From contig NZ_JACRSE010000003.1 of assembly GCF_014281055.1 (NCBI RefSeq), positions 372,001-436,000 on the forward strand: a stretch of DNA of 64,000 nucleotides, written 5' to 3'. The stretch comes from Fluviispira vulneris (GTDB lineage: Bacteria > Bdellovibrionota_B > Oligoflexia > Silvanigrellales > Silvanigrellaceae). Below the pieces are notes generated by a model that was not told the origin of the DNA, did not search any database, and was given only the letters and a program-made list of their open reading frames with translations. Below, piece by piece: positions 15,829-23,664 of the stretch (position 1 is the stretch's first letter; the number at the start of each line of letters is the position of its first letter). The position numbers and the translations under genes were made by a program.

Positions 15829-17013
15829 ATGCGATTCATTCTATACGATTTTCATATTATTCGCCCACAATATGAATCAATTCAGGGAGATGCGCTAAAT
15901 TGGATAGCGCAAGCACATGCTTTTTCTAAGTATAAAGAGAGTTTAGCGCAGGGACGTAGAAAAAATATTGATGAGTATTATGATCTCATTCAAAAAATTG
16001 TTCTCAGATTTGCTTGCAAGCCAGAAAAAATTAGTAAACGTGGATCGGATATTTCAGATTTTCTTCATACTAATTGGGATGCAATGGAAATATTTAATCT
16101 TAATAAAAGTGCGTCAGGTGTTTTTATGCATCAACGTATGCAGTTTTTTGAATATAAAATTCAAAATATTTTACAAATTTTTTATAAAGATGTTTATCAT
16201 GCGCCGCAAAATCTAATTCATGTTTCCTGCACCGGCTATGTATCACCATCTGCACCACAAAAACTAGTGGCAGAGCGTGGTTGGGGAAGTTTTTGCCAAG
16301 TGACACATGCTTATCATATGGGCTGTTACGCTTCTTTACCTGCAATAAGAATGGGAAAAGGATTTTTGCAAAATGAGAATAGACATCAAGCTATAAATGA
16401 AAAAGTTAAGAAAAAAGTTGATATTATTCATAATGAATTGTGTACACTCCATTTTAACCCAGCGGCTCACGACCCTGAACAAATTGTTGTCCAGAGTTTA
16501 TTTGCGGATGGTCATATAAAATATTCGATATGCGAATCTAATGATTATTCAGCTAACGATACGCAAAATGCATTTGAAATTATTGTTGAGCAAGAGAATT
16601 TGTATGCTGAGTCTTTTGACGCAATGACCTGGCGACTTTCAGATTTTGGTTTTCAAATGACCATTTCAAGAAAAGTTCCATCAATAATTGCCGAAAATAT
16701 TGAAGTATTTCTTAATAATTTATTTGACAAAGCTGGAATGAATTTTAGTGACGAAAAAGAAAAAGTTATTTTTGCTATTCATCCAGGAGGACCAAAAATT
16801 ATTGAATATATAAGAGATATTTTGAATTTATCGGCACAGCAAATAAAGTACAGTCAATCTATTTTATTTGAATATGGTAATATGTCTTCGGCAACTCTTC
16901 CACATATTTGGGAACGAATATCTCAAACAAAAGAAGTCATAGGCATGCTTGTAGTGAGTTTAGCATTTGGGCCAGGACTCACAATGTCTGGCTCAATAAT
17001 GAGAGTCATATGA
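15829..17013 (+). CDS. Type III polyketide synthase (chalcone synthase-like)
   Basis: 394 residues, the normal length. It condenses an acyl-CoA starter with malonyl-CoA and cyclises the product to a resorcinol or pyrone. The thiolase-fold Cys-His-Asn triad is intact: C134 (HVSCTGYVSPSAPQ), H318 (FAIHPGGPKII) and N351 (YGNMSSATLPHIWERI). Related bacterial enzymes make long-chain alkylresorcinols or alkylpyrones. The stop overlaps the start of the following membrane protein (ATGA). The start is preceded by GAGGTGAG. The starter length cannot be read here. Confidence 0.92.
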   Translation: MRFILYDFHIIRPQYESIQGDALNWIAQAHAFSKYKESLAQGRRKNIDEYYDLIQKIVLRFACKPEKISKRGSDISDFLHTNWDAMEIFNLNKSASGVFMHQRMQFFEYKIQNILQIFYKDVYHAPQNLIHVSCTGYVSPSAPQKLVAERGWGSFCQVTHAYHMGCYASLPAIRMGKGFLQNENRHQAINEKVKKKVDIIHNELCTLHFNPAAHDPEQIVVQSLFADGHIKYSICESNDYSANDTQNAFEIIVEQENLYAESFDAMTWRLSDFGFQMTISRKVPSIIAENIEVFLNNLFDKAGMNFSDEKEKVIFAIHPGGPKIIEYIRDILNLSAQQIKYSQSILFEYGNMSSATLPHIWERISQTKEVIGMLVVSLAFGPGLTMSGSIMRVI

Positions 17014-17531
17014 TAATCGTAGATATTACATTTTTAATTTTTATAATATTTCATTCAATAATTATGCTTATAGATGAGTTTTATTTTCATAGGAAAAGAG
17101 GTTTGACTAAATGGGAAAGGATTGGTCATCCATTAGATACTCTGTCAACACTTCTTTGCTTCTTTGTCATCATTTTTCTTCCAATGACAAAAATAAATAT
17201 GATTATTTTTTTATTTCTGGCTATCATCTCTTGTGCATTGATTACTAAAGACGAATTTGTTCATGCAAAATACTGTAGTAAAATTGAGCATCTATTGCAC
17301 GCTTTTTTATTTATTTGTCATCCCATAATGTTGATATTTATTTTTGTATTTTGGTCAGCATTCTCTAAATCATATTTTAGTTTTTTATTACATGTGGATT
17401 TAATTTTTTTAAAAAACATAATTATATTCCAGTTTGTATCAATTAATTTGTTTTTATTGTACCAAATTTTATATTGGAATATAATATGGAAAGGTCGTAA
17501 ATATGCTGAAAAAATATCAAATAAACAATGA
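17010..17531 (+). CDS. Polytopic membrane protein rich in conserved-looking His/Asp/Glu
   Basis: 173 residues with about four to five membrane segments. Charged and His residues sit in repeated motifs near the membrane: DEFYFHRKRGLTKWERIGHPLD (about residues 22-43, with the conserved-looking parts DEFYFHR and IGHPLD) and KDEFVHAKYCSKIEHLLHA, followed by CHP. That arrangement is compatible with a metal-binding membrane enzyme, but I cannot name the family. The ATGA overlap with the polyketide synthase gene and the overlap with the methyltransferase gene (17503) make a role in the same pathway likely. The start at 17010 is chosen over an in-frame upstream one because of this coupling. Confidence 0.65.
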   Translation: MIIVDITFLIFIIFHSIIMLIDEFYFHRKRGLTKWERIGHPLDTLSTLLCFFVIIFLPMTKINMIIFLFLAIISCALITKDEFVHAKYCSKIEHLLHAFLFICHPIMLIFIFVFWSAFSKSYFSFLLHVDLIFLKNIIIFQFVSINLFLLYQILYWNIIWKGRKYAEKISNKQ

Positions 17532-18249
17532 AATTTATAAGCAAATGGGAGATGAGTGGTACGTAAGTGATAATTATGTGGCTCTTCTGCGAGCTGAAGC
17601 AAGGGCACGCAATCCATGGGTTAGTAAAAAAATAAATGAATTGGTAAAAAATGAAAACATTTCTGTATTAGATGTTGGTTGCGGTGGAGGATTGCTTGCA
17701 AATGAATTAGCTAATATGAATTATAATGTCACCGGTGTAGATATTCACCCAGAAGTTCTAAATGTAGGAAAAAAATATGACAAGACAGGAACTGTAAAAT
17801 ATCAGTATGCCGATGCTCATGCTCTTCCATTTCCTGATGCTAATTTTGATGTCGTCTGTATATTAGATGTTCTTGAACATGTGGATAATTACATTCAGGT
17901 ATTAAACGAATGCGTGCGTTGCTTAAAAAAAGGAGGTTATATTTTTTATCATACATTTAATAGAAATATATTTTCTTTTTTATTTGTTATAAAGGGAATG
18001 GAAATATTTGTTAAAAACACTCCTAAAAACTTACATGTTCATCACTTGTTTATTAAACCTAAAGAGATTAGAAATATATTAATGGAATTAAACTGCAATT
18101 TAAAAGAAATTAAAGGCTTAAACCCTAAAATATTTTCAAAAGAATTTATGAAATTAATATTTAAAGGGGAGATTGATGATAAATTTGAATTTAAGCTAAC
18201 AAACTCATTAATTTCTGGATATATTGGTTACGCAGAAAAGTTAAATTAA
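17503..18249 (+). CDS. UbiG-like SAM-dependent methyltransferase
   Basis: 248 residues, class I methyltransferase fold: motif I VLDVGCGGGLLANELA, then the acidic GVDIHPE, ADAHALPFPDANFDVV and LDVLEHVDN. The N-terminal segment (MGDEWYVSDNYVALLRAEARARNPWV) follows the UbiG layout. UbiG methylates ring hydroxyls in ubiquinone synthesis. Here, downstream of a type III polyketide synthase, O-methylation of a phenolic lipid is the simplest inference. The first 29 bases overlap the membrane-protein gene. It ends 20 bases from the convergent RND gene. Confidence 0.85.
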   Translation: MLKKYQINNEIYKQMGDEWYVSDNYVALLRAEARARNPWVSKKINELVKNENISVLDVGCGGGLLANELANMNYNVTGVDIHPEVLNVGKKYDKTGTVKYQYADAHALPFPDANFDVVCILDVLEHVDNYIQVLNECVRCLKKGGYIFYHTFNRNIFSFLFVIKGMEIFVKNTPKNLHVHHLFIKPKEIRNILMELNCNLKEIKGLNPKIFSKEFMKLIFKGEIDDKFEFKLTNSLISGYIGYAEKLN

Positions 18250-18269: not shown

Positions 18270-21200
18270 TCAGTCGTTTGTTCTTCTTTCTTTTAGGGTG
18301 CGAGAATGGGGTCTTATTTTATGCAAAATATTTTTTAGCTTCATTTTAGTTTCATTTATAAAACTATAAAAACATGGCACTATTAATAAAGTTAAAATAG
18401 CAGATGAGATGAGCCCTCCAACGACAGTTATACCCATATTTGCTCTACTCTCATGCCCTGGTCCTGTGCTTAAAATGAGTGGTATCATACCAGCCACCAT
18501 TGTTAATGTTGTCATTAAAATAGGTCTAAAACGGACGTATGCTGATTCGAGCAAGCTTTCATTGACTGACATACCTTCTCTGGCTTTTTGTTGAGCAAAT
18601 TCTATCAATAAAATTGCATTTTTTGTCACGAGTCCCATCAGCATAATAATACCAATAATAGCGTTTATAGACATGGGTTGTCTTGTTATAATTAATGCTA
18701 AAAATGATCCTGAAAATGCAAGCGGAACACTGAGCATGATGGAGAATGGCCCCATAAAATTTTCGAACTGTGCGCAAAGCACCATGAAAATAAAAAGAAC
18801 AGCGAGTAAAAGTGTCGATGAAATTATTTTAATACTTTCATTCAAAAATTCTGTATCACCCCCTAATTTATTTTTAATTTCAAATGGCATAGTTTCTTTC
18901 ATATAATCATTTATTTGAGAGGTTACTCCCGCTAAGTTTTTTCCAAAATATTTTGCTTTAATTGTAATTTCTTTTTCCCCATTTAAATGGCGAATAACAG
19001 ATTCAACTTTTACTTTTTCAATTGTTGCAATTGTCGATAGTAGCACAGAGTTGTCATTGCGTGTTGGAATAAAAACGCCAGCTAGGGAATTAAGTGTTTG
19101 ATTATTATTGTTTGGTAACATAATTTTTATGTCATAAAAGCGGCCATCAGCATAAAAATCTCCTACTTTTTCTCCTGCATATAAATATTTTAATGTACTT
19201 GCAATATCTTGAGATGTTATTCCTAAACTCGCGGCTTTAATTCGATTTGGAATAATTTTATATTCATAGGTAGAGTCATCTGCATTGCTAGAAGCATCTT
19301 TTACATCTGGAAGGGTATTCATAAATTCAATCAGTTTCTGTGAATACATTTCAAGTGTTTGGGTGTTACTAGAGAGAAGACTGATTTGCAGAGGATAATC
19401 TCGTGAGCCGAAACCAACTTTTTCTTCTGGATTTTGAATAAATCGTTTTAAATTTTCAGATATATTTTGTTTGAATTGAGCAGTTGTAAAAGTTCTTTTT
19501 TTGGGATCTATTAATGTAATATTGTAATTAATATCACTTGCAACACCAAACTGACCTCCGCCAACTCGCATAAGAACGCTCTCAACTCCAGGATAGGAAA
19601 GGATATATTTTTCGATTTCCTGGGCTCTTTTAGTAGAAACTGCTAATGGAGTATCCTTTGCAAGAGTAAATGATATTCTCGTTTTACCATTATCTTCATC
19701 AATATTGAGAGTCATCGGTACAAATTTTAACAAAATGACGCTTAAGATTAGTATTACAAGGGCTGCTGAAAGAGTCGATTTCTTATATCTCAATAAAAAA
19801 CGTAATGTATTCTGATATTTTTTTTGAAATTCAGCAAATTTTTTATCAAATAGTTCAGCATATTTATTTTTTTGAGTGCTTAAATGATTTTCATCTTTCA
19901 ATATGCGGCTACTCATCATAGGAACTAAGGTAAATGCAACAAAAAGTGAAATTAGCACTGAGGTTGCTACGGTGATACCAAATTCAAAAAAGAATTTTCC
20001 AATAATCCCTTCCATAAATGCTACAGGAATAAAAACGGCAACAATTGCTAATGTAACAGCAATCGCAGCTAAACCTATTTCAGCTGTGCCATCATACGCA
20101 GCAGTGAAAATGTTTTTACCAAGAGTTCTATGTCTATGAATATTTTCAATAACAACAATTGAGTCGTCTACAAGTATTCCTATTGAAAGAGTTAGTGCTA
20201 ACATTGTTAAGTTATTTAAAGTAAAGTTTAACGCATTTGCAACTATAAATGTTCCTATAATTGAAGTTGGTATGGAAACAGCACAAATAATAGTATTGCG
20301 CCAATCATGAAGAAAGATAAAGACGACGAAGACTGCAAGTATGGCACCAAGTAAGAGGTCAAATTTAACTGATTCAATGGATGATGAAATCCATGTTGAA
20401 TCGTCAAAAATGACCGAAAGATTGAGATTTTCTCTTTGGGAAATATTAATCTTTTTAATCAGATCACGAATATCGTTAGAAACTTCAACCATATTAGATT
20501 GAGGTTTTTTTCCGATATAAATAAAAATAGATTGTTTACCATTGAATTCCCCATAGGATCTTGCCTCGACAACGCTGTCTTTTACTTCTGCAATATCTTC
20601 TACACGGAGAATATTATTAGGATTTAATTCTAATGGTATTTTTGCAATGCTATCAATGGATGTTGGTATATTTTGAGTAGACATACCTGTGACACTCGTC
20701 GGTGTGCGCAGAAGTCCAGCTGGTAAGGTAACAATTTGGCTGGCAATTTGATTTTTTATCTTAATCGGTGATAATTGCATCGAATTTATGAGAGCGGAAT
20801 TCAACTCTATATGTACTTCTCTTTCTTGTGAACCTATTACATCAATTTCTCCAACACCTTTTATTTGTTGAATTAAAGGTTTTAATTCAAAAATGGCATA
20901 GTTTGAAAGTTCTTTTTTAGATAGCTTTGTTGATGATAAAGTTAATCCCAAAATGCTATCACCATTCATTTCATATTTTTCAACAATTGGAGTATCTGCA
21001 TCCTTAGGAAAATATATTTGGCTTACTTTATTTCTCACATCTTCAATGGCTCTATCTGGTTTTACTTCGAGATCAAATTCGAGTGAAACACTTGCACCGT
21101 TTTGATATGCTGAGCCATTCATATTTTTGAGACCAGTGATACTTCGAAAACTTTTTTCCATAGGTTTTAAAAGGAGTTCCTCAGAAGTAGAGGGATTTGA

Positions 21201-21359
21201 TCCTGAATAGGCAACACTCACGGTTATAAACGGCAATTCAATATTAGGTTTGTCTTCTATCCCTAGTTTAGGATAGGACATAAGGCCAAATATTATGATT
21301 AATAGATTCAAAATAGATGAAAAATAAGGTCTTTTGATAGAGACTTTTGAGAGTAGCAT
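18270..21359 (-). CDS. RND efflux transporter permease (AcrB/MexB-like)
   Basis: 1029 residues, typical for the HAE1 family. It is the inner-membrane proton/drug antiporter of a tripartite pump. The N-terminus ([39 protein letters not shown], about residues 7-45) starts the first helix. The proton-relay aspartates are in [15 protein letters not shown] and the matching lysine in [15 protein letters not shown]. Two large periplasmic loops give the usual duplicated layout. Downstream of the adaptor and TolC genes on the same strand (17-base gap), so it is the last gene of the operon. The substrate is unknown. Confidence 0.93.
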
Positions 21360-21376
21360 TTCAGTTTCTCTTAAAA

Positions 21377-22306
21377 TTAGTTGGATTTAAGTTTGATTTC
21401 TAAAAAAGTACCTGGCACAAGCGTACCTGTATAATTTTTTACATCTGCATAAACATCAAAGGTTCTTGTTGATTGATCAATTACTGGGACAATTCTTTTT
21501 ATAATTGCAGTCCCTTTTTCGCCAGATATTGGATTTATTACATCAAATTTCATTCCAAGTTTTACTTGATTAAAATAGGTAATCGGCATTTGAGTAAATA
21601 AACTAAGATTTTTCATTTGTGTAATTTGTAATGCAGGTGTTCCTTCAGAGAGATAATCTCCAACATTTTTTAATACCTTAGAAATAACTCCTGAATACGG
21701 TGCGTAGAGTTTATTTGCTTTAAGGATAAATTCTTTACCCTCTAAAGTTGCTTGTGCATTTTTTAAATTTAGAATTGCAGCTTTGGTATTTATTTTTTCA
21801 TTTTCTAATGTTGTTGTATTGATAATCCCATTTTTTTGCTGCTGAGTAACACGAAGTAATTTTTTTTCTTGTTGCTCGAGTAATAATTTTTTATTTTCAA
21901 CTTCAATCTGCGCAGAGCGAACATCTATAGATGCTTGTTTTTCCGCTAAGGAAGCTAGCAATTGACCTTGCTTGACTTCTTCGCCGGCTTTTACATAAAT
22001 ATTGCTGATTGTGCCTGAAGTCAAAAAACCAATTGAGCTTTGATTTTCCGCTTTAATTGAAGCCGGAATTCTTGGCACACTGCTTGCGTCCAGAGAAGTG
22101 TCAATGATGTTCGTTTTTATATCATGGAGAATATCACTTTGTTTTGCAGCTTCTTGTGCTGGTTGAGAGGTTTTTTCTTGAGTCGGTGTCGAGTTTGTTG
22201 CTGGTAATGAAACTTTTTCAGTGCCTTGTTTTTTACATGATATGAAAAGGCCAAATAGACTCATGAGAATTATTGAGCTAAAAATTTTAACTTTTTTATG
22301 ACACAT
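21377..22306 (-). CDS. RND periplasmic adaptor (membrane fusion lipoprotein)
   Basis: 309 residues from the ATG at 22306; a longer frame opens further up, but this start follows TAAGGTG and gives a lipoprotein signal (IFSSIILMSLFGLFISCKKQ). Next come a low-complexity Thr/Pro/Gln linker, a biotinyl-lipoyl half-motif (GTISNIYVKAGEEVKQGQLLASL), a helical hairpin and the second half (LYAPYSGVISKVLKNVGDYLSEG). It bridges the RND permease to the outer-membrane channel. It lies 8 bases downstream of the TolC-like gene. Confidence 0.9.
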   Translation of the reverse strand: MCHKKVKIFSSIILMSLFGLFISCKKQGTEKVSLPATNSTPTQEKTSQPAQEAAKQSDILHDIKTNIIDTSLDASSVPRIPASIKAENQSSIGFLTSGTISNIYVKAGEEVKQGQLLASLAEKQASIDVRSAQIEVENKKLLLEQQEKKLLRVTQQQKNGIINTTTLENEKINTKAAILNLKNAQATLEGKEFILKANKLYAPYSGVISKVLKNVGDYLSEGTPALQITQMKNLSLFTQMPITYFNQVKLGMKFDVINPISGEKGTAIIKRIVPVIDQSTRTFDVYADVKNYTGTLVPGTFLEIKLKSN

Positions 22307-22314
22307 AGAGCACC

Positions 22315-23664
22315 TTATTGAGTAATTTTTGGAATATCGCCTAATGCAGCTTGTAACTTGAGCCATGAAATATCAAGATTATTTCTCATTTCTGCTAAAT
22401 TAATTTTTGAATTTGTTAAACTATTTTGCACTAATATAAGCTCTGAAGCTGATAGATCACCTGTCTGGTATTTTAGCAGTGATAATTTTAAAGCTTCTTC
22501 CGAAATATTGACTGCATCTTTAGATTTTATCAGATTTTCGTTAAAGTTCTTAAAATTATTGTATGCTAGAATAATTTCTTGATTGATATTTATTTCTGAC
22601 TCTTCTTTATCAAGAATGAGTTTTCTTTTTCTATTTAATATAGACATTTGATTGTCAGCTATAACACCACCATCCCAAATTTTCCAGTTCAAGCTCAACC
22701 CATAAGTGAATTTTGTTTGAGGATAATAGATATAATTTGGATCATTTGGGCTAGCCTCTTGAGAGGATTTTTCATAGCTGTTTCTAGCAAAAACATTTAT
22801 CTCTGGTAAATATGCTGCTGATGAATGTAATAAATTATATTTTTCAGCACTGATTTTATTATCAAGACTTTTTAATTCATTTCTATTGTTTTTTCCTTTT
22901 TTAATGATACTTTCAAGAGATTCTAATGGTTTATTTCTTAACTCAAAATAAGATTTATTTTCATATGAGAGTGTAAGGTTGCTATGTATATTTAAAAAAG
23001 TTTTTAGTTCATTAATTTTATTTTGTAATTCGTTTTCAGCTTGACTGAGTTTTATTTCACTTTCAATATATTTTGCTTGGAATTGCAAAAGATCTATTTT
23101 TGTTTTATTTTCATCTCCACTTTCAAAAAGGATTTTGGTTTCTTTTAATTGATCAGCTACACTTGTTAATTCAGTTTTTTTTATTTCAATATTCCGATAA
23201 GCTTGTTGAACATTTAAAAAATATTCAGCTGCTTTTTCTCGAGCTTTTATTCTCTCTGCCAAAAGATCAAAGCTTGCCGCTTTTTTAAACTCTTTTTTCG
23301 CCATTAAGTTGGGTAACTCTGTAATGAGACCTGTTAATGGTTGACTTAGCTCTAGAGCAATGCTTTCGCTCTGTGAGGGAATATTGGAATTATAGTTCTG
23401 CCTTTGATCATCTGCAAAAGTAAGATCTCCAGAGATGCTTAGACTTGGACCGAAATTAAAGTAGGAGAGTGTTTCAGATTTGTCATAATAGTCTAAATCT
23501 TGAGTAGCAGCTTTCACTTTATAAGAATTTATTTCAGCTAAATCCATAGCTTTTTCAAGCGTGATATTCGTTGGTAAATTACTATTTATTTTAGATTGGG
23601 AAATACTTGAGTTTTTTATAAATGACAAAAAAATAACTAAAAAAATATATTTAATAACTTGCAT
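22315..23664 (-). CDS. TolC-family outer-membrane efflux protein
   Basis: 449 residues with an N-terminal signal peptide (YIFLVIFLSFIKNSSISQS). The mature protein shows two related coiled-coil/strand halves typical of OEP proteins: ITLEKAMDLAEINSYKVKAATQDL and the later KYNLLHSSAAYLPEINVFARNSYEK, ending ...NLDISWLKLQAALGDI. It forms the exit duct for the adaptor and RND permease encoded just downstream, in the order channel, adaptor, pump. Confidence 0.88.
   Translation of the reverse strand: MQVIKYIFLVIFLSFIKNSSISQSKINSNLPTNITLEKAMDLAEINSYKVKAATQDLDYYDKSETLSYFNFGPSLSISGDLTFADDQRQNYNSNIPSQSESIALELSQPLTGLITELPNLMAKKEFKKAASFDLLAERIKAREKAAEYFLNVQQAYRNIEIKKTELTSVADQLKETKILFESGDENKTKIDLLQFQAKYIESEIKLSQAENELQNKINELKTFLNIHSNLTLSYENKSYFELRNKPLESLESIIKKGKNNRNELKSLDNKISAEKYNLLHSSAAYLPEINVFARNSYEKSSQEASPNDPNYIYYPQTKFTYGLSLNWKIWDGGVIADNQMSILNRKRKLILDKEESEININQEIILAYNNFKNFNENLIKSKDAVNISEEALKLSLLKYQTGDLSASELILVQNSLTNSKINLAEMRNNLDISWLKLQAALGDIPKITQ

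Follow-up and report, generated by a model that had tools for sequence, protein, structure and literature searches.

Operons that combine a type III polyketide synthase (PKS), a methyltransferase, and an oxidative partner are of a known kind. At the locus described here, the synthase and the methyltransferase enclose a small membrane protein (MEM) of an unnamed family with no solved fold. Which reaction might this protein contribute, and what do the three gene products make together? The locus lies in a 64,000-nucleotide stretch (the window) of DNA from Fluviispira vulneris, a member of the Silvanigrellaceae. A preliminary description of the window, made from the sequence, had proposed that the three genes make a ring-hydroxylated and O-methylated resorcinolic lipid or quinone-like molecule, with the membrane protein supplying the hydroxylation step. 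Our analysis partly supports this interpretation and strengthens it: the trio, which predatory bacteria, environmental chlamydiae, and myxobacteria have in common, probably builds a decorated phenolic membrane lipid. We found no description of the trio or of MEM in open-licence papers; papers on sponge and Hydra chlamydiae report type III PKS clusters.

Organization of the Locus

Three overlapping genes on the + strand, about 2.4 kb in total, occupy positions 15829-18249 of the window:

15829-17013, + strand: PKS, 394 aa, ATG start; ArsB/ArsC-like type III polyketide synthase, predicted alkylresorcinol synthase
17010-17531, + strand: MEM, membrane protein, 173 aa; ATGA in common with the PKS stop
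17503-18249, + strand: MT, UbiG-family SAM O-methyltransferase, 248 aa; 29-nt overlap with MEM

Both gene overlaps noticed previously, the ATGA at 17010 and the overlap starting at 17503, are present, and a Shine-Dalgarno-like GAGGTGAG lies upstream of the PKS ATG. Promoter and terminator scans at the locus gave no signal above that of shuffled sequence. The GNAT gene preceding the PKS in the window is absent from the recurrent neighbors of trio loci. An RND efflux set on the - strand (18270-23664) is transcribed toward the trio; by eye, its genes encode an RND pump, a membrane fusion protein, and an outer membrane channel protein. Homologues of the RND pump and adaptor are also found downstream of MEM in the Polyangiaceae loci L047 and L059, possibly by coincidence.

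The Synthase Is Predicted to Make an Alkylresorcinol

The PKS matches the C-terminal half of chalcone/stilbene synthase in Pfam (PF02797, 2e-26), and its best relatives in the PDB are structures of ArsC from Azotobacter (3vs9/3vs8, 4e-65), the next best match being at 4e-26. Four codons are of functional interest:

16228-16230, + strand: catalytic Cys134 (sequence and alignments)
16780-16782, + strand: catalytic His318 (sequence and alignments)
16879-16881, + strand: catalytic Asn351 (sequence and alignments)
16630-16632, + strand: Trp268, at the position of ArsB Trp281 and ArsC Gly284 (aligned to 3vs8, Gly, and 3vs9, G284W)

The C134/H318/N351 triad, previously judged intact, aligns as the type III PKS triad. 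Among 92 aligned PKS rows, His and Asn are found in all 92 and Cys in 90, the other two being gapped. The residue at the ArsB Trp281/ArsC Gly284 position is important in determining whether an alkylpyrone (Gly) or an alkylresorcinol (Trp) is made (PMC6274091). Because of Trp268 and the role of this one well-studied residue, the window PKS is predicted to make a 5-alkylresorcinol. Trp occupies the position in all 92 trio PKSs compared (92/92), which agrees with the resorcinolic product suggested before. The arsABCD system of Azotobacter vinelandii, which includes the closest solved PKS relative (ArsC) and shares the Trp with the trio PKS through ArsB W281, differs in that the dedicated fatty-acid synthases ArsA/D feed its PKS. 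To our knowledge, arsABCD has no MEM or UbiG partner.

The genome of the window contains a second type III PKS-like gene (L164:5318-6472; G000:C1, about 324.3-325.5 kb), in which Ser replaces the catalytic Cys; the aligned G002 homologue has Asn. Downstream of this gene lies an open frame that spans at least 1451 aa and looks NRPS-like by eye. The long branch of the PKS-like sequence suggests that its condensing function has been altered or lost.

The Methyltransferase Belongs to the UbiG Family

Against the curated UbiG model TIGR01983, the MT scores 144.7 bits (cut-off 102.95), and it matches E. coli UbiG (4kdc) at 2e-23. It is the sole UbiG over the cut-off in the genome of the window. The alignment with 4kdc continues through the membrane-binding insertion after beta-4:

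17953-18030 (approximate limits), + strand: MT segment aligned to the UbiG membrane-binding insertion (alignment to 4kdc)

The UbiG-like layout ascribed earlier to the last enzyme is thereby borne out by both the curated cut-off and the aligned segment. In UbiG, the insertion binds membranes and gates the entry of SAM (PMC4796655).

The MT thus shares family membership and the membrane segment with UbiG/Coq3 of ubiquinone biosynthesis and differs from them in its setting, a polyketide operon in genomes without a proteobacterial UbiA over the cut-off. UbiA, which alone among the ubi genes was searched, was found over the cut-off in none of the 56 genomes of the window's phylum (0/56), so that the UbiG of the trio has no evident ubiquinone pathway to serve; a ubiquinone role for the MT is unlikely. 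UbiG enzymes methylate ring hydroxyls adjoining another oxygen (ring ortho-diols). Since this arrangement is absent from plain resorcinol, a hydroxylation would be needed before the MT could act, an argument that combines established knowledge with inference.

Conserved Residues and Predicted Structure of the Membrane Protein

The Pfam scan assigned no family to the window MEM and gave no credible match across 73 family members, and sequence searches of NCBIfam and the PDB with MEM returned chance-level matches alone. An NCBIfam match to FTN_0109 (E 0.0024, 25 residues) was weak and was taken as chance. The AlphaFold2 model of MEM (73 family members) is an all-helical bundle with a pLDDT of 92.6 and a pTM of 0.87, for which Foldseek found no match in the PDB at E<=0.001.

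In MEM, 17 positions, including five His, four Glu, and two Asp, are unchanged in all 98 homologues. These are D22, E23, H27, R30, E36, G39, H40, D43, S74, K80, E82, H85, E93, H97, L100, F101, and H104, so the earlier label "His-rich" understates a set that extends to Glu, Asp, and others. They fall into four motifs:

17073-17099, + strand: motif 1, D22 E23 xxx H27 xx R30, end of helix 1 (98 sequences and model)
17115-17141, + strand: motif 2, E36 xx G39 H40 xx D43 T44, start of helix 2 (alignment and model)
17229-17264, + strand: motif 3, S74 ... K80 D81 E82 xx H85, helix 3, broken at 80-81 (alignment and model)
17286-17321, + strand: motif 4, E93 xxx H97 xx L100 F101 xx H104, start of helix 4 (alignment and model)

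In every helix, the invariant His and Glu form pairs at a spacing of i/i+3 or i+4. In the model, the conserved residues of helices 2 and 4 lie on one face and those of helix 1 within a 140-degree arc, while helix 3 is broken exactly at K80-D81. All invariant residues but S74 and H104 are placed at the end of the bundle adjoining K/R-rich loops. By the positive-inside rule, this end of the modeled bundle is predicted to be cytoplasmic, the same side on which the MT acts. We also considered an internal duplication (DE..H..E..GH / DE.H..E...H), which was rejected because hhalign of the two halves was not significant.

With one Glu and one His per helix, MEM could have the appearance of a two-metal carboxylate site, with a spacing and a fold unlike the known ones. 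It shares paired candidate Glu/His ligands in each helix, as well as the logic of a quinone pathway, with membrane or membrane-associated di-iron oxygenases of the Coq7, alternative oxidase, and fatty acid hydroxylase types. However, MEM had neither a Pfam match to Coq7, AOX, or FA_hydroxylase nor a PDB fold match to them, and its ExxxH spacing, against the ExxH of known four-helix di-iron enzymes, argues against a di-iron reading. From the residue pattern and the operon logic, MEM is probably a membrane di-metal oxidizing enzyme of an unnamed family.

Two other roles have to be weighed against these residues. A protein that is small, all-helical, and fused to the MT in two species could lack catalytic activity and serve as a membrane scaffold, lipid-binding partner, or flippase, recruiting the PKS and MT and moving the product. 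We regard this as quite unlikely for a family whose 17 invariant residues gather at one end of the bundle and, with few exceptions, are polar or charged, and whose neighboring MT has its own UbiG-type membrane-binding segment (PMC4796655). Alternatively, MEM could be a second, unusual methyltransferase replacing the ICMT-type SrsB/BpsB of actinobacterial and Bacillus operons, which are of similar size, also have membrane helices, and likewise adjoin a type III PKS. The srsABC operon of Streptomyces griseus indeed shares with the trio a PKS and the methylation and hydroxylation of alkylresorcinols, pairing the PKS with an ICMT-type methyltransferase and a monooxygenase, without MEM and without UbiG (PMC6669644). 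Nevertheless, the ICMT family of Pfam neither matched the window MEM nor appeared among the families listed for the 73 members, Foldseek against the PDB returned no significant methyltransferase match, and the operon already contains the MT, making a methyltransferase role for MEM highly improbable.

The Three Genes Occur Together Across Phyla

Searching the collection with MEM alone gave 80 loci, labelled Bdellovibrionota, Chlamydiota, Myxococcota, Acidobacteriota, Fibrobacterota, and others, in a sample biased to sequences sharing two conserved peptides, so that distant relatives in other contexts could be missed; many of the matches are MAGs with doubtful labels. Among them are loci of Fluviispira multicolorata (L037) and Spirobacillus cienkowskii (L038). 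The genome with the trio nearest to the window is G005, which is listed, together with G004, in the window's genus. The cross-genome search proposed in the preliminary description did reveal co-occurrence of the three families, with all three present at 68 of the 80 loci, well beyond chance, and the MT at 71. The same description had named a membrane family residing mostly away from type III PKS genes as evidence against the proposal; a PKS is found beside MEM at 75 of the 80, so this attempt at refutation failed. The order PKS-MEM-MT is conserved in most of these loci over several phyla, and MEM and MT are fused in frame, in one open frame, at L073:2839-4005 and L116:4056-6149 (an Oligoflexia MAG and a Deltaproteobacteria MAG).

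The flanking genes differ between loci and are unshared across phyla. A larger operon around the trio was therefore rejected, as the neighbors vary upstream and downstream, the sole recurrent ones being a TauE/SafE permease and a redoxin, for the most part at Chlamydiota-type loci. The TauE/SafE permease gene lies near the trio in 19 loci (e.g., L046:2896-3831 and L184:5035-5829, Chlamydiota-type), and a transport role associated with the trio is possible.

Within 151 Chlamydiota genomes, MEM was found in 44, UbiG in 44, this class of PKS in 43, and all three in 42. Genomes with MEM contain the PKS class in 43/44 cases and UbiG in 42/44, with a Fisher p of about 1e-32 or less for each gene pair, p-values that ignore shared descent. 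In all 43 genomes having both MEM and the PKS, the two reside on the same contig. The sole MEM genome lacking the PKS is G211, where MEM is at base 30 of its contig; the other breaks in the pattern are the MEM of G189 and the UbiG of G223, at or near contig ends, and a lone MT in G158. In G158, a membrane gene that looks similar to the TauE/SafE permease gene adjoins the MT even though the PKS and MEM are gone. As for labels, metagenome bins titled "Chlamydia trachomatis" (L079, L099) carry the trio; in all likelihood they are environmental chlamydiae under a wrong label. Several MAGs labelled "Verrucomicrobia" also group with Chlamydiota, and one of them, G077, was counted as Chlamydiota.

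The presence or absence of MEM matches that of UbiG in 53 of the 56 genomes from the window's phylum, including where the genes have separated. Five Silvanigrellaceae genomes (G006, G008, G010, G012, and G013) keep UbiG away from MEM, and the Bdellovibrio loci L098, L105, and L111 have no MT nearby, the MT being elsewhere in their genomes. Because the MT is retained when non-adjacent, the co-occurrence of the trio is not merely inherited adjacency. This bears on the reading of the locus as inherited synteny, with the MT a ubiquinone enzyme and MEM unrelated to it. One genus of Silvanigrellaceae (g4) favors that reading by keeping a higher-scoring and more canonical UbiG outside the operon, near a lon-like gene (L168:4421-5230), possibly a displacement within the UbiG family. 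Inherited synteny is, however, already contradicted by the order kept across several phyla while the flanks differ, by co-occurrence without linkage, by the MEM-MT fusions, by the 56 genomes without a UbiA over the cut-off, and by Chlamydiota, in which UbiG accompanies MEM and the PKS in 42 of 44 genomes; we consider its probability negligible. The proposal that the trio is one functional unit, by comparison, holds for order, co-occurrence, and fusion, and the co-function of the three genes is well supported by genomics.

Exceptions to the trio are rare and of several kinds. The PKS and MT occur without MEM in G022 and in a second copy in G053, a genome otherwise having the full trio. The PKS is found without MEM or MT at the related loci of G031 and G033 and in an additional copy in G054. 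Some PKS-MEM pairs lack a nearby MT. MEM lacks a PKS in the stretch examined at L042 and L108 (both with an MT), at L059, and at L061 and L082, which start close to contig edges. In G014, MEM and the PKS are non-adjacent on the same contig, with no UbiG over the cut-off.

As the rare PKS-MT pairs without MEM show, the MEM step is dispensable. Methylation need not wait for MEM in such genomes, which fits a pathway metalloenzyme with another reaction: oxidation or desaturation of the alkyl tail, halogenation, or oxidation or reduction of a hydroquinone. The same residue and operon evidence would fit such an enzyme. CylC, for example, acts in a type III PKS pathway. It is a dimetal-carboxylate halogenase (PMC8406957). 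Against such other reactions, the MEM-MT fusions, and the fact that MEM and UbiG are retained together, suggest that the UbiG substrate is produced by MEM, and UbiG enzymes act on ring ortho-diols. We therefore consider another reaction of MEM rather unlikely, if a serious contender.

An Alternative Operon in Chlamydiota

Another 17 Chlamydiota genomes contain a type III PKS of a different clade, scoring 180-210 bits in the PKS search; the five sampled are separated from the trio PKS with full support. In 15 of the 17, the locus consists of this PKS, a methyltransferase, and an FAD oxidoreductase, as in the compact operon L180:3342-6240 and 14 similar Chlamydiota loci. The one methyltransferase scanned scores 49.6 bits, below the UbiG cut-off. 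None of the 17 genomes contains MEM or the trio UbiG, and no homologue of the FAD oxidoreductase is present at trio loci; the two types of operon are mutually exclusive among the sampled Chlamydiota genomes.

The alternative operon has the composition of the hierridin (hidABC) and planctomycetal operons, which, like the trio, comprise three genes, for an alkylresorcinol synthase, a methyltransferase, and an oxidative partner (PMC8086630, PMC10896814). In these operons the oxidative partner is an FAD oxidoreductase and the gene order differs from that of the trio, and the hierridin-like version in Chlamydiota differs further by its methyltransferase below the UbiG cut-off and its separate PKS clade. 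The reaction of the planctomycetal flavoprotein was left unresolved after expression (PMC10896814). Because the alternative operon contains the FAD oxidoreductase and never MEM, MEM seems by analogy to occupy the oxidative-partner slot of type III PKS operons. This contrast is the best available argument for an oxidizing MEM, although the analogy of the slots is itself unproven.

A Proposed Pathway and Its Implications

From the gene content, the families of the PKS and MT, the cyclization residue, the co-occurrence, the fusions, and the invariant residues, we infer a metal, an oxygen chemistry, an order of steps, and a product, as follows. The PKS would take a long-chain acyl starter supplied by ordinary fatty-acid metabolism, extend it with three malonyl-CoA, and close the ring by aldol condensation, giving a 5-alkylresorcinol. 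The Glu/His/Asp cluster at the predicted cytoplasmic end of the MEM bundle would bind a probable two-iron center and hydroxylate the ring of the membrane-held resorcinol to an ortho-diol. The MT, which its insertion would hold at the membrane and which is fused to MEM in some species, would then O-methylate the ring diol. The end product would be an alkyl methoxy-hydroquinone or a quinone-like lipid; it may oxidize to the quinone, and a redox role is speculation. Our confidence is evenly divided on this scheme as a whole, a self-contained pathway that runs, on the cytoplasmic side of the inner membrane, from alkylresorcinol through two-iron ring hydroxylation by MEM to O-methylation by the MT. 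The words "di-iron" and "hydroxylase" rest on the residue pattern and operon logic, as MEM has no relative of known function or fold.

More tentatively, and with considerable doubt, MEM may represent a new superfamily of di-iron aromatic hydroxylases, small, embedded in the membrane, and unlike any solved fold, that replaces the flavoprotein and yields together with UbiG an alkyl methoxyquinone, a possible respiratory or redox lipid in ubiquinone-lacking predatory bacteria and environmental chlamydiae. The MEM family reaches across several phyla and is closely bound to a single pathway. Should it prove to be an oxygenase, it would provide a new enzyme scaffold for the hydroxylation of phenols, and O-methylated phenolic lipids or quinones of a new class would be predicted. 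In the organisms concerned, which include chlamydiae, relatives of Bdellovibrio, and the Daphnia-infecting Spirobacillus, envelope and redox lipids are important for the interaction with host or prey.
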